Below, in pieces: positions 1,826 to 16,631 of a DNA stretch of 43,745 bases. Below the pieces are notes generated by a model, which did no database searches, was not told the DNA's origin, and was given only the letters and a program-made list of their open reading frames with translations. Each line of letters starts with the position of its first letter. The stretch's first letter is position 1. Made by a program: the position numbers and the translations under genes. The DNA comes from Lachnospiraceae bacterium (GTDB lineage Bacteria > Bacillota > Clostridia > Lachnospirales > Lachnospiraceae): assembly GCA_017392525.1 (NCBI GenBank), contig JAFOVD010000013.1, positions 1 through 43,745 on the forward strand, written 5' to 3'.

Positions 1826-2393
1826 TTTAGATGAAGTCCATTGCACTGCTGCTTCCGCCCACCGCCCCCGGCACTTTGCAGGAATATTGTATTTTCCGTA
1901 TATGCAAAGTCTCGCATCTTCTATTAGCATGTGTTTTTTTTAAGTCTGTACAGTTTCTACGGTGGTGTTTTCAAATAGGGCAGACACACAAAAAGAATGG
2001 GAACTTCCTAATGCTACAACCACTGCGTATGAATTAAAGTGAGCTTAGAAAAATAAGAATCAGGATTGCAACATATCGTCATGCGCCGCCATGGACGGCG
2101 GCGCAAGTGACACCTGATACACGACGTCGAATGTGTCACGGTGACGATATGTGCAAATCCTGATTCTTTTATTTTTCTTAGCAAACGATACTTGAATACG
2201 CAGTGGTTGCAACATTAGGAAGTTCTTATATATGTCTTATGTCTGCCCTTTGAAAACGCCACCGTAGGAACTGTTCATCCTGCAAAAAACACATGCTAGA
2301 TGCTCGCTTTTTGCATGGTAGGAAATAACAATATTCGCAAACATGTGCCGGGGGCGGTGGGCGAAAGCAGCAGTGCAATGAACTTCATCTAAA
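1826..2393. repeat. Giant imperfect inverted repeat (about 250-bp arms) with two-hairpin tip
   Basis: The whole gap between the two convergent genes folds back on itself. The outermost 49 bp of the two arms (from 1826 rightward and from 2393 leftward) differ at only about two places. Many further blocks pair in the same order: AGCATGTGTTTTTT, CCTACGGTGG-like, GTTTTCAAA, GGGCAGAC, ACTTCCTAATG, CAACCACTGCGTAT, AAGAAAAATAA, GAATCAGGATT and ACATATCGTCA. At the apex two extra hairpins protrude: 2083-2104 (GCGCCGCC/GGCGGCGC, 6-nt loop) and 2107-2139 (GTGACAC/GTGTCAC) with a CGACGTCG palindrome at 2122-2129. No credible ORF crosses it. The class is not recognised. It may be a structured RNA, a palindromic mobile element or a fold-back pair of repeats. 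No target duplication was established. Confidence 0.9.
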
Positions 2394-2408: not shown

Positions 2409-5216
2409 TTAGTGAGTCAATTTGTGGATTGCAATGCTTGCACCACGTTTGATAGCATATGGTCCAATCTTTTTGAATTTATCTTCTGCAATTGTCATCG
2501 TACTTGCTTCTGGCACATCACGTGTAAGCTTAATAGCGTCAAAATTGCACTTTGTTGTACAGAGTCCGCAACCGATACAACGGTTCTCATCAACCACAGA
2601 AGCTCCGCAGCCCAGACAACGATTTGCCTCCTTTCGAACCTGCTCTTCTGTAAGTGTCAGTCTTAGGTCGTCAAATGTTTCTGCTGCAACTCCGGCTTTC
2701 TTTCCCGGAATCTGACGTGGCGCATTATCAAAACCTTCTATACGAATATCATCCTTGTCCAATTCAATAAATTCACGGCGATCTCTTGCCAAATCCAGAC
2801 GATTGCCCGGATGAACAAAACGATTGATGGAAACAGCACCTTCACGACCTCCTGCAATCGCATCAATTGCAAATCGCGCTCCGGTAAAAACATCTCCACC
2901 AACGAAAATATCCGGTTCTGCTGTCTGAAGCGTCAGTGGATCAGCCTTTGCAGTCATATTTCTATTCAATTCTACTTTTGTACCATCCAGCAATTTTCCC
3001 CACTGAACCGACTGTCCAATAGATAGCAGTAAATTCTCACATGGAATCTCTATGGTCTCTGCTTCGTCATACTGCGGATTAAATCTTCCTTCAGAATCCT
3101 TAACTGCCGTACATTTCTTAAATATGACTGCTGTTACATGCCCATTTTCGGCCTTCACCTCTTTCGGGCCCCAGCCATTCATAACTACGATGCCTTCTTC
3201 CTTTGCTTCAAGCACTTCGTCATCCGCTGCCGGCATTTCCTGCTCACCTTCCAGGCAAAGCATCGTAACCTTGGTTGAACCTGCTCTAATAGCTGTTCTG
3301 GCAACATCTATCGCAACATTTCCACCACCAATTACTACAGTTTCCCCCTTCAGTTTGATACTGTGATCCTGATTTATATTTCTAAGGAAATCAACACCTG
3401 TCTGAACGCCCTCAGCGTCCTCTCCAGGCACTCCTGCCATTCGGCCTCCTTGCATACCAATAGCGATATAGAATGCCTTATAGCACTGTTTACGGAGCTC
3501 CTGAATCGTAACATCTCGTCCAACCTCTACTCCGGTCTTTATTTCCACGCCCATTTGTCTAATAACATCAATTTCTGCATCAATAATGTCCTTTTCCAAA
3601 CGATATGACGGAATTCCATTCATCAACATTCCACCCGGGCGCTGTTCCTTCTCAAATACAGTAACAGGATATCCATCCTGACGCAGGAAATACGCCGCCG
3701 CCAACCCGGACGGTCCTCCACCAATAACGGCAATTTTGTAATCATCCGACCACATACCACCATCATGCTTCTCACAAAGCGGCACATATCTCTTATCCTT
3801 GGTAAGTTCCACTGCAGCTATAAATTTCTTGATTTCATCAATAGCAAGCGGCTCATCAACAGTTCCTCTGGTACATGCATCTTCACAGCGTCTGTTACAT
3901 ACAGCGCCGCAAATCATTGGAAATGGATTATCTTGCTTTATCAATTTCAAAGCATCTTCATACCGTCCTTCTGCAGCCATCTTAATGTAACCCTGTACGG
4001 ACAAATGCACCGGACATGCCGTCTTACATGGTGCTGTACCTGTTTCATAACAATTTGTTTTAGCATCATCACGATAATTATAATTCCACTTTTCAGGACC
4101 CCATTTCTTTACATTTGGAAGTTCTGTCTTTGGATACTTCACATAAGTACCATTCTTTTTACAGAGTTTCTGTCCAAGTTTTGCTGCACCTACCGGACAC
4201 ACCTCAACACATTTTCCACATGCCACACATTTTTCTCTGTCTACATGCGCACGATAAGCCGATGCTGACATATTCGGAGTATTATAAAGCTGAGAAGTGC
4301 GAAGTGCGTTACAAACTCCGGCTGCACAGTTACAGATTGCTACAATTTTATCCTCTCCATCAATATTAGTAATCTGATGCACATAGCCATGGCGCTCTGC
4401 TCTTTCAATTATCTCAAGGGCCTCTTCTTTGGAAATGCGACGTCCCAGGCCTCTTTCTGCCATATAATCCGCCATATCTCCTACACCAATACAGTATTCT
4501 CCTTCAATTTGACCGGAGCCCTCTCCTCGCATAGCCTGTTGTTTACGGCAGGAGCAGATTCCCACGCCAAATCTGTCGTATTTATTCAACCAATGTGAAA
4601 TATGTTCTACAGACACAGATTTATTCTGCATCTCTATCGCCGCCTCAACCGGAATAACATGCATTCCGATTCCTGCACCTCCCGGTGGTACCAACTGTGT
4701 AATTCCCCCTAACGGCAACTGTGTCATTAGATTAAAGAACGTAGCCAGTTCCGGATGCTCCTCTGTCACCTTATCCTGCATCATCATAAATTCAGCAGAA
4801 CCCGGCACAAAGATTGGCATATTGTAAAGCTTCTGTCCACGGTTGTGCGGATTACTTGTGGTCTCAACTACACCAATCCACACCAGACGCTTCAACATCT
4901 TCTTTGTATCCTCTAATGACATATGATTTTTCTTTGCTAATTCTTCCAACGTATATTCTACGCGGCATTTTTTGAAGTTTAAGAGAAACTTGATTTCCTC
5001 TTTGCTAAAGATATGATCCAATGCCCAGTATTCCGGATCATGATTATTAATCTGATGTTTTATTTTCTTAACATATCGATCTGTAATGATTGTCGCAAGC
5101 TTCAATACGAGTTCTTCTTTCTCCGGATCCTGTGCCACATAGTCCGGATCTTGCCAATAATCATTTTCATTGATCATTGGATCCCCCAATTTCCACTCTT
5201 TTAAACTTTTTCCCAT
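2409..5216 (-). CDS. FAD/NAD(P)-dependent oxidoreductase with multiple 4Fe-4S domains (GltD-like)
   Basis: This 935-aa multidomain redox protein has four visible parts. Residues 1-310 hold a winged-helix-like segment followed by a cysteine region with CSCRKQQA and CNCAAGVC. A ferredoxin domain follows (CVACGKCVEVCP). Next comes a glutamate-synthase-small-subunit (GltD) module with its iron-sulfur entry domain (CKTACPVHLSVQGYI, then ICGAVCNRRCEDAC), the FAD fold GGGPSGLAAAYFL and the NAD(P)H fold GGGNVAIDVARTAI. The C-terminus has another cluster motif, CIGCGLCTTKC. GltD-type modules pass electrons between NAD(P)H, FAD and Fe-S clusters; no GltB partner is nearby, so it probably moves electrons to or from another acceptor. 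This large architecture is common in anaerobic Clostridia, but its substrate is not established. The start follows GGGGGA six bases upstream. Confidence 0.88.
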   Translation of the reverse strand: MGKSLKEWKLGDPMINENDYWQDPDYVAQDPEKEELVLKLATIITDRYVKKIKHQINNHDPEYWALDHIFSKEEIKFLLNFKKCRVEYTLEELAKKNHMSLEDTKKMLKRLVWIGVVETTSNPHNRGQKLYNMPIFVPGSAEFMMMQDKVTEEHPELATFFNLMTQLPLGGITQLVPPGGAGIGMHVIPVEAAIEMQNKSVSVEHISHWLNKYDRFGVGICSCRKQQAMRGEGSGQIEGEYCIGVGDMADYMAERGLGRRISKEEALEIIERAERHGYVHQITNIDGEDKIVAICNCAAGVCNALRTSQLYNTPNMSASAYRAHVDREKCVACGKCVEVCPVGAAKLGQKLCKKNGTYVKYPKTELPNVKKWGPEKWNYNYRDDAKTNCYETGTAPCKTACPVHLSVQGYIKMAAEGRYEDALKLIKQDNPFPMICGAVCNRRCEDACTRGTVDEPLAIDEIKKFIAAVELTKDKRYVPLCEKHDGGMWSDDYKIAVIGGGPSGLAAAYFLRQDGYPVTVFEKEQRPGGMLMNGIPSYRLEKDIIDAEIDVIRQMGVEIKTGVEVGRDVTIQELRKQCYKAFYIAIGMQGGRMAGVPGEDAEGVQTGVDFLRNINQDHSIKLKGETVVIGGGNVAIDVARTAIRAGSTKVTMLCLEGEQEMPAADDEVLEAKEEGIVVMNGWGPKEVKAENGHVTAVIFKKCTAVKDSEGRFNPQYDEAETIEIPCENLLLSIGQSVQWGKLLDGTKVELNRNMTAKADPLTLQTAEPDIFVGGDVFTGARFAIDAIAGGREGAVSINRFVHPGNRLDLARDRREFIELDKDDIRIEGFDNAPRQIPGKKAGVAAETFDDLRLTLTEEQVRKEANRCLGCGASVVDENRCIGCGLCTTKCNFDAIKLTRDVPEASTMTIAEDKFKKIGPYAIKRGASIAIHKLTH

Positions 5217-15284: not shown

Positions 15285-16631
15285 ATGGAAACAACAAGTA
15301 AAAAAATGTCTCTTTTAGAGAAGCTTAGTTATGGTTCCGGAAACATGGGAATCTGCTTGGCAACAACAATCATATCAACATTTATGATGTACTTCTATAC
15401 AGATGTTATTCAGTTACAGTTGATACAGGTTGGAACAATTATGATGGTTGGTGGTGTGGTAGATGCCATTTCCGATGTTGCAATGGGAGTTATTGTAGAT
15501 AATACAAAGTCACGATGGGGTAAATGCAGACCATATATCATTTTCTGCGCAATCCCGATGGCAGTTGTTTGTTTCTTCCTGTTTCATATTCCGGAAGCTG
15601 CAAATCAGGTGAAATACATCTATGCAATGGTAACGTATGTTCTTTATACATTAGCTTACACAGCTGTGCTGATTCCACAGAATGTACTTCTTACAGCAGT
15701 GACAGATGATCCTAAGGACAGATTACAGGTAAATATGTTTGGAACTTTAGGAACAAATTTTGGTCAGCTGGCTGTTGCATCACTTGCACTTACACTGGTC
15801 AATGCTATTGGTAAGGGAGATGAATATCTCGGATATGGAGTAACATCCATGATTTTTGCCGGAATCGGAGCAATTCTTATCTTGATTGATGGATTAAATA
15901 CAAGAGAAAGATTGAATGCCGGTGCAGCACAGAAGGCGACAGCTACAGATATGTTAAAGGCTATGAAAAACGGGCCATGGGTTATCTGCACACTGACTTC
16001 ATTATTTACAATTGCAGTTGTTGTAATAAAGGCAACAACAACGGTATATTTTGCTACAAATGTACTTGAGAACGTAGGCATTGCGTCAACATTACTGTCA
16101 ATCTCCAACTTAATTGGTATTCCGCTTACGTTGGTGATTCCGTTTATTGCAACAAAAATAGGTAAGAGAAATCTAGTATGGACTGGAGCGATTTTCTCCA
16201 TTGCTGGTTCACTGGGAACATTGTTATGTAAGGATTCTATTGTATTTGTAATTATATTTACAGTTGTTGCATCCATTGGATTAGCATTCATTAACGGTAT
16301 TATTTATGTTATGTGTGCAGAATCCATAGATTATGGAGAATGGAAAACAGGAATCAGAATTCAGGGATTCCTTATGGCCTTTATTGGATTTACAATAAAG
16401 ATAGCAAATTCTCTGGTATCCCTTCTTATTACAACAATTCTGAATATAGGAGGATATGATGGAAGTAAGGATGTGCAGACTGCTTCCGCATGTACAGCAA
16501 TTGAGTTTTGCTATATCGGCTTACCTGTAATCCTCATGGTTGCAGTTGTAATTATTAATGTATTTTATCATCTTGATAAGCAGTATCCGGAAATCAGAGC
16601 TGCGCTGGATGCAAAAAGAAATAATGCTTAA
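15285..16631 (+). CDS. GPH-family sugar:cation symporter (MelB/XynB-type)
   Basis: The 448-aa protein has about twelve membrane spans and the glycoside-pentoside-hexuronide (GPH) signature: LEKLSYGSGNMG at the N-terminus, then DAISDVAMGVIVDNTKSRWG, the family's conserved loop 2-3 region, and RPYIIF. GPH carriers import oligosaccharides or glycosides with H+ or Na+. It heads a tightly packed set with esterases and an AraC regulator, so the cargo may be an acylated oligosaccharide, for example acetylated or feruloylated xylo-oligosaccharides (inference). The start has GGAGGG upstream. The leader (15180-15284) includes a small GTGG/CCAC hairpin and no obvious sigma-70 consensus, which fits activator-dependent expression. 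Confidence 0.92.
   Translation: METTSKKMSLLEKLSYGSGNMGICLATTIISTFMMYFYTDVIQLQLIQVGTIMMVGGVVDAISDVAMGVIVDNTKSRWGKCRPYIIFCAIPMAVVCFFLFHIPEAANQVKYIYAMVTYVLYTLAYTAVLIPQNVLLTAVTDDPKDRLQVNMFGTLGTNFGQLAVASLALTLVNAIGKGDEYLGYGVTSMIFAGIGAILILIDGLNTRERLNAGAAQKATATDMLKAMKNGPWVICTLTSLFTIAVVVIKATTTVYFATNVLENVGIASTLLSISNLIGIPLTLVIPFIATKIGKRNLVWTGAIFSIAGSLGTLLCKDSIVFVIIFTVVASIGLAFINGIIYVMCAESIDYGEWKTGIRIQGFLMAFIGFTIKIANSLVSLLITTILNIGGYDGSKDVQTASACTAIEFCYIGLPVILMVAVVIINVFYHLDKQYPEIRAALDAKRNNA

Follow-up and report, generated by a model that had tools for sequence, protein, structure and literature searches.

The convergent gap between two genes in the window (here, the whole 43,745-nt stretch of contig JAFOVD010000013.1 from a Lachnospiraceae bacterium) is filled by a long near-palindrome, and the question is what this structure is, how its arms remain paired and what, if anything, it does. 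The upstream gene encodes a membrane transport protein (PF03547; 793-1803, + strand) and the downstream gene an iron-sulphur/pyridine-nucleotide oxidoreductase of 935 amino acids (2409-5216, - strand); both are directed at the palindrome. The 568-bp near-palindrome (1826-2393) described in an earlier note is real: RNAfold gives -338.9 kcal/mol compared to a mean of -147.76 (sd 6.4) for 100 dinucleotide shuffles, none of which is as good (z -29.9), and the fold is a single rod with a T-shaped tip in which the arms are paired in register from end to end. The two tip hairpins (2083-2104 and 2107-2139) are located exactly as claimed in that note, and its nearly perfect outer 49 bp are borne out by 47 of 49 complementary positions between the C-rich, copy-specific left outer arm (1826-1874) and the G-rich right outer arm (2345-2393), both read on the + strand. 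A repeat search recovers seven arm pairs inside the palindrome with complementarity of 76-100%; most blocks of the inner arms are just 76-85% complementary.

The outer limits of the structure are less sharp than had been supposed. The TTTAGATGAAGT termini were taken as defined element ends; however, BLAST pairs 1808-1874 with 2345-2411 at 88%, and thus the arm similarity spans the gap from just behind one stop codon to the other. The whole palindrome, with this weaker outermost pairing added to the fold of 1826-2393, covers 1808-2411. The part common to the window copy and a second copy of the same genome (L001) is 1875-2344, at 92% identity; together with alignment A1, it delimits the left inner arm with its conserved internal-loop blocks (1875-2032, +) and the right inner arm (2193-2344, +). 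The outer arms of these two copies are mutually unrelated and each is nearly perfectly paired. Beyond chance-level matches, BLAST finds no second place for the outer arm of the window copy in genomes G000-G003, and the fetched loci hold no second source of it except one 14-mer. The palindrome was said to contain no ORF: no gene is recognised within it in the ORF list, while chance ORFs of 50-68 amino acids do overlap it.

The tip identifies the family. An Rfam 15 scan of the window returns two families above cut-off: a T-box leader (RF00230; 29885-30121, + strand, 125.4 bits) and TwoAYGGAY (RF01731), which matches 2033-2192 (+) with 79.9 bits against a gathering score of 43 and over model positions 1-168, its full length. 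In the fold of the window copy (L004), one stem carries both tip hairpins side by side, as in the family. The namesake AYGGAY, which lies outside Rfam's score rule, is not present in both loops: tip hairpin 1 (+) has the loop AUGGAC (2091-2096), a GGA loop of the CsrA type, and tip hairpin 2 (+; ACACGACGU) has the loop ACACGAC, with CGA where two-site copies such as L002, L005, L009 and L012 have GGA. Several sister copies likewise carry CGA in place of the loop-2 GGA. The window copy is a TwoAYGGAY member by model score, as a degenerate copy. The proposal of a structured RNA thus stands for the tip by the Rfam match, and two-sided changes along the arms (below) speak for it as well. The likeness to an ITR holds in shape and in nothing beyond it, and an AAV-like ITR is set aside on this ground; an integron attC site is presumably excluded by ends that do not fit. 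The 568 bp have no blastn match among plasmid and phage records, and viral contigs give two pattern matches, neither of which is at the RF01731 cut-off.

The family is multi-copy, and the window copy is far from unique. The source draft genome (1.99 Mb, 65 contigs, 78.6% complete) has 7 TwoAYGGAY copies above cut-off and one weaker copy. Counts in other genomes are 25 (G001, Lachnospiraceae bacterium AC2012), 4 (G002), 2 (G003), 31 (G089), 32 (G125) and 23 (G179). TwoAYGGAY is present in 35 of 200 genomes of a family sample (one genome per genus) and in 40 of 398 genomes of a phylum sample, and the long hairpin family occurs in many genera of gut and rumen Clostridia. For 107 copies, 60 nt are available on either side of the core. 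Measured against cross pairings between copies (close relatives included), pairing outside the Rfam core exceeds the 95th percentile in 103 of them and the 99th in 66; L007, L008, L052 and L073 fall short of the 95th. Most palindromes are about 200-700 bp long, a rough estimate because weak extensions can be partly chance. TwoAYGGAY is therefore usually found at the tip of a longer palindrome. The palindrome, the family membership by model score and the many copies are certain.

This recurrence bears on whether the palindrome is an assembly artefact, a fold-back from short-read assembly or amplification. A draft of 65 contigs at 78.6% completeness invites the suspicion, as do L001, L002 and L006, which lie near contig ends. 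By contrast, 25 copies are found in the two-contig AC2012 assembly, whose record names 'quiver', which we take to be a long-read polisher; the inner arms of the window copy are just 76-85% complementary in most blocks; and the structure recurs across many genera. An artefact is almost certainly not the explanation.

Other repeats and RNAs are seen near TwoAYGGAY copies. A separate ~660-bp repeat, one end of which is a 144-bp palindrome, is present in AC2012 at L033:2192-2857 and in roughly a dozen longer matches. Four of its copies are located between, or next to, TwoAYGGAY copies that form inverted pairs; it has no match in G000, G002 or G003. The degenerate tandem units at L035:3030-3300 measure ~52 bp, contain CATGGTGGAG and ATATGCCCAA and can be read through as chance ORFs; similar units occur in L034 and L037. 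A TPP riboswitch (RF00059; L089:3759-3855, - strand) lies ~290 bp from a TwoAYGGAY copy of Pseudobutyrivibrio ruminis SIG312.

The most constant part of the structure is the pair of tip loops. In an oriented set of 110 copies (L001-L031, L050-L073 and L123-L177, which covers part of the copies found by genome scans, includes L008 from below the cut-off and leaves out L074-L078, five loci with a match), GGA is in two loops of 82 copies, in one loop of 26 and in none of 2, counts that are partly circular because the Rfam model itself scores AYGGAY. No other trinucleotide is as frequent in two loops; the next is GAT (54 copies), which overlaps GGAT. Less affected by this circularity are the spacing of the two GGA (27-31 nt in 79 of the 82 two-site copies) and the context, CA(N)GGA(Y)G or ACAGGA(Y)GU, with closing stems that are variable. 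The SELEX consensus of CsrA is RUACARGGAUGU, in which ACA and GGA are fully conserved and a GGA in a hairpin loop is preferred (PMC4347634, in the passage on the consensus). Both the RNA family and the proposal that it binds CsrA are already known: a 2010 table lists TwoAYGGAY as probably an RNA and probably not cis-regulatory, from the human gut, gamma-Proteobacteria and Clostridiales (PMC2864571), and a 2014 paper offers CsrA binding as a hypothesis to test (PMC4333381). In the passages of the literature found by family name, no tested function is reported, nor are the long palindromic context, the csrA association, mobility or inversion met there, and these may be published elsewhere.

Gene content accords with the proposal. 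In the family sample, csrA (PF02599) is present in 34 of 35 TwoAYGGAY genomes compared to 74 of 165 others (Fisher 1.8e-9), and in the phylum sample in 39 of 40 compared to 242 of 358 (Fisher 1.2e-5); the tables are matched by eye, the samples overlap at least in the positives G000 and G183, and relatedness is uncorrected. The TwoAYGGAY genomes that lack csrA are G171 (family sample) and G399 (phylum sample), and the genome of the window carries fliW-csrA. TwoAYGGAY is found almost only in csrA genomes. Flagellin (PF00669) fits equally well, being present in all 35 TwoAYGGAY genomes of the family sample and in 75 of the other 165; thus, co-occurrence does not separate CsrA from motility. Support for a link of TwoAYGGAY to CsrA, as judged from loops and gene content, is moderate.

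The placement of copies relative to genes does not suggest a leader. The gene upstream of the 110 copies is on the same (+) strand in 53, on the opposite (-) strand in 49 and not called in 8; downstream, the counts are 42, 61 and 7. The near-even orientation of the upstream gene does not fit a cis-regulatory leader, and Rfam's cis-regulatory label is unsupported by it. Where genes are called on both sides (95 copies), 61 pairs are co-directional, 23 convergent and 11 divergent. On the 3' side, 20 of 64 palindrome ends have a facing stop codon within 15 nt (9.3 under the null, p 0.0002), and on the 5' side 6 of 52 do (2.7 under the null, p 0.04); for gene starts, the corresponding counts are just 2 of 32 and 1 of 26.

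A 3'-end element of convergent genes, in which a long hairpin ends or protects both transcripts, would account for the proximity to stop codons rather than gene starts and for palindromes that run nearly from stop codon to stop codon, as at the window locus and at two orthologous Pseudobutyrivibrio loci (L083 and L088). Such an element would leave the conserved GGA loops unexplained, and convergent pairs make up just 23 of the 95 copies. It also lacks a terminator-like site at the palindrome: a search of 1500-2700 for intrinsic terminators (a GC-rich stem followed directly by a U run) finds one site where 1.1 would be expected by chance, and this site is on the minus strand at 1521-1546, within the transporter gene. 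A 3'-end element is improbable as the explanation of the family.

The two sides of the RNA are not equivalent. At 58 single copies, gene 3' ends lie at a median of 241.5 from the 5' side of the RNA and 108.5 from its 3' side (p 0.0002), with no side difference for gene 5' ends (p 0.78). Neighbouring copies within 1.6 kb, counted in the complete lists of G001, G002, G003, G089, G125 and G179, are arranged (-)(+) in 16 cases, (++) in 1, (--) in 1 and (+)(-) in 0; four more pairs, picked by eye among the matches listed, are (-)(+) in 3 and (++) in 1. The larger distance on the 5' side and the (-)(+) pairing are compatible with a promoter on the 5' side. Sigma-70-like promoter sites show no excess 5' of single copies and are, if anything, fewer there (4 of 78, compared to 12 of 78 on the mirrored side). 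These distance and promoter tests on single copies leave out 28 loci typed as paired or neighbouring and loci that lack an ORF on both sides. The genes in them, and in the test of palindrome ends against stop codons and gene starts, are ORFs from our own script rather than annotations.

The arms differ from copy to copy and remain self-complementary. When six long copies of the genus of the window are aligned and scored on the fold of the window copy, 84.8% of cells pair, and 94 of 223 arm pairs are changed on both sides, compared to 51.6 (sd 4.8) in shuffled data, where 0 of 500 are as high. The two-sided changes drop to 20-43 when partners are slid by 1-3 columns, a control that is tilted in favour of the fold because the fold is taken from one of the six aligned copies. 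A divergence of the arms that proceeds by one-sided change only, a possibility raised in the earlier note, is thus not what is found. In G089, each of 15 copies pairs its own left and right arms with scores of 34-66, whereas cross pairings average 8.7 and 0 of 210 exceed 30; cross pairings in the genus of the window average 7.9, with the near-identical L018 and L022 cross-pairing at 208. The Pseudobutyrivibrio copies L083 and L089 are 90% identical over 502 columns, and by eye their outer arms are unrelated yet each is paired. Inner parts that are similar beside outer arms that are unrelated indicate that the outer arms belong to the locus. The evidence for copy-specific, covarying arms is strong.

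The kind of mismatch points to how the pairing is kept. Isolated arm mismatches comprise 61 G.T, 34 A.C and 131 others, of which 89 are T.T and mostly fall at two core sites. The excess of G.T over A.C (1.8 times, p 0.007, with copies counted as independent although they are not) hints that the TwoAYGGAY strand is under some constraint as RNA. No such constraint is visible in the MITE-like genomes, where G.T (11) and A.C (10) are equally frequent. A purely RNA-level account of the arms is rejected, as G.U forms just 2-6% of arm pairs and isolated G.T is just 1.8 times A.C. The mismatch and G.U pattern is what would be predicted from DNA-level copying between the arms with a weaker RNA constraint on top.

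Base composition and repeats within the arms also vary. By eye, the long copies L001, L003, L004, L018 and L022 have a G-rich right arm and a C-rich left arm, in sequences that are unrelated or partly related, and several short copies have the reverse bias. The C-rich left arms of several long copies in the genus of the window prompted the idea of a Rho site. Next to one copy, L161 of G089 (contig 15610-15720), the outer left arm is duplicated in tandem with a spacing of about 52 bp.

One orthologous pair is inverted. The loci L083 and L088 come from two Pseudobutyrivibrio metagenome-assembled genomes. Their flanks align directly, with identities of 88.2% and 89.6%. The palindrome, which lies between two convergent ORFs, reaches 97.8% identity over 579 bp only if one copy is inverted; aligned directly, it is at 76.4%. 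The limits of the inverted stretch are the two stop codons. As both genomes are metagenome assemblies, the inversion may be an assembly flip. Stems can be perfected, lengthened and inverted by template switching during replication, a process proposed to maintain RNA hairpins (PMC8794818).

In two relatives, the palindromes behave as mobile DNA. The copies in G179 and most of those in G125 are bounded by GATTCGGGTGTCAAAAGGT-like inverted repeats, ends that in G179 also bound inserts of 38-203 bp that lack TwoAYGGAY. Among 28 inserts with both ends (L054, L166 and L172 are dropped, as their ends are absent), the 7-bp flanks are identical in 10, compared to 7 of 756 cross pairs, and match in at least 6 of 7 positions in 14, compared to 38 of 756. 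A smaller test of 20 inserts, made without L192 and the TwoAYGGAY copies of G125, finds identical flanks in 7, compared to 6 of 380 cross pairs. The evidence for MITE-like behaviour in G179 and G125 is strong. A 72-bp insert with MITE-type ends (L191:3313-3384 in G179) is placed, by eye, between two genes of a phage-tail-like cluster. No autonomous transposase with the G179/G125 ends is recognised in the ORF lists of 20 stretches.

The window copy itself is not classed as a MITE, as neither shared terminal inverted repeats nor a target duplication is found there or in its genus. The earlier suggestion of a non-autonomous palindromic mobile element thus finds its match in relatives in two other genomes of the family and not in the window copy, whose outer arms occur at one locus in four genomes. 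An empty site for it was looked for, and no clean one is found: at the orthologous locus of G001, an ordinary gap separates a YqeY-like gene from the oxidoreductase gene, and the transporter gene is absent along with the palindrome.

These data bear on two further alternatives. The first is that the palindromes are selfish, MITE-like DNA with no decoy role. The tip would then be either a hairpin formed by DNA or RNA cargo of ancestral origin, and copies would accumulate in the gaps between genes because they do little harm there. This reading would explain the G179 and G125 inserts with their terminal repeats and 7-bp target duplications, the identical ends around short inserts devoid of TwoAYGGAY, the 23-32 copies per genome in G089, G125 and G179, the balanced orientation with respect to the upstream gene (53 to 49) and the lack of a G.U excess in the MITE-like genomes. 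It is at odds with GGA loops that persist at near-constant spacing while the surrounding stems vary, with the restriction of the family to csrA/flagellin genomes, with the two-sided arm changes in the genus of the window and with MITE-type terminal repeats not being recognised in that genus. We regard purely selfish DNA as unlikely. The second is that a transposase or relaxase acting in trans reads the tip hairpins as signals in single-stranded DNA, with the GGA loops as its recognition sites. Palindromic mobile units that are read as hairpins exist (REP/RAYT and the IS200/IS605 type), the element moves in some genomes, and pairing is mostly Watson-Crick (G.U 2-6%). By contrast, the G179 ends move without TwoAYGGAY, no transposase is recognised in the 20 ORF lists above, and the 7-bp length of the target duplications suggests a DDE-type reaction rather than HUH enzymes. 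Such a DNA signal is highly improbable.

The explanation that we favour, with close to an even chance of being right, is a dispersed family of CsrA-decoy RNA hairpins that is partly mobile and has arms rewritten at the DNA level. Transcription from the TwoAYGGAY strand would yield an RNA rod that presents the GGA loops; a CsrA dimer would bind these loops and be withdrawn from its mRNA targets, similarly to a CsrB-like decoy. The window copy, with one GGA left, may be a weaker or decaying decoy. MITE-like insertion may spread copies in some lineages, and template switching between the arms during replication may copy a change from one arm to the other, largely keeping the pairing, and may also lengthen or flip the palindrome. 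Transcription, CsrA binding and template switching as the cause are only inferred here, from sequence. Counting against the decoy are the loss of the second GGA in the window copy and the lack of promoter-site enrichment on the 5' side; counting against the explanation as a whole are the equal fit of flagellin, the partial circularity of the loop counts and the equal G.T and A.C in the MITE-like genomes. A more specific form is doubtful: a mobile, invertible CsrA-decoy palindrome, with arms of up to ~250 bp rewritten at each locus by template switching, a stem maintained through DNA copying and not through compensatory selection base by base, and growth outward to the stop codons of the neighbours.

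The csrA co-occurrence, the near-fixed site spacing and the dispersal make the 2014 CsrA proposal directly testable and, if it is true, Clostridia gain a CsrB-like layer beside FliW. CsrB-type RNAs carry many CsrA sites each, whereas TwoAYGGAY has one or two per RNA; CsrB-type RNAs come from one or two loci, whereas TwoAYGGAY has tens of dispersed copies, and its stem is very long and palindromic. The two are alike in that TwoAYGGAY has a hairpin-loop GGA in a CsrA context (consensus in PMC4347634) and its host has csrA. No CsrB, CsrC or RsmZ family match is found in the Rfam scan of the window, and the window copy is thus not filed as a member of the CsrA-sequestering sRNAs. Compared to the TwoAYGGAY model, the window tip matches in full (79.9 bits), whereas the model has 168 positions and the window pairing extends ~200 bp longer on each side, and one of the two namesake loops is degenerate; Rfam's cis-regulatory type is contrary to the 2010 table entry (PMC2864571) and to the gene orientations.

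Bacterial palindromic repeats include MITEs, REP, ERIC, Correia and similar elements. TwoAYGGAY palindromes resemble these in being multi-copy, intergenic and non-coding, and the G179/G125 copies resemble MITEs in their terminal inverted repeats and target duplications. They differ in the conserved RNA structure at their centre and, in other genera, in lacking common ends and in outer arms that differ from copy to copy. Hairpins formed by template switching, in which stems are created, repaired and inverted, suit the mostly Watson-Crick arms and the inverted orthologue. In PMC8794818, RNA helices are taken to be runs of 2 to 10 pairs and the histories studied are those of rRNA genes, whereas the arms here reach ~250 bp; template-switch models there have addressed short stems. 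Tens of hairpins per genome with self-complementary, copy-specific arms, together with the inverted orthologue, provide a natural system for how long stems stay paired during sequence change.
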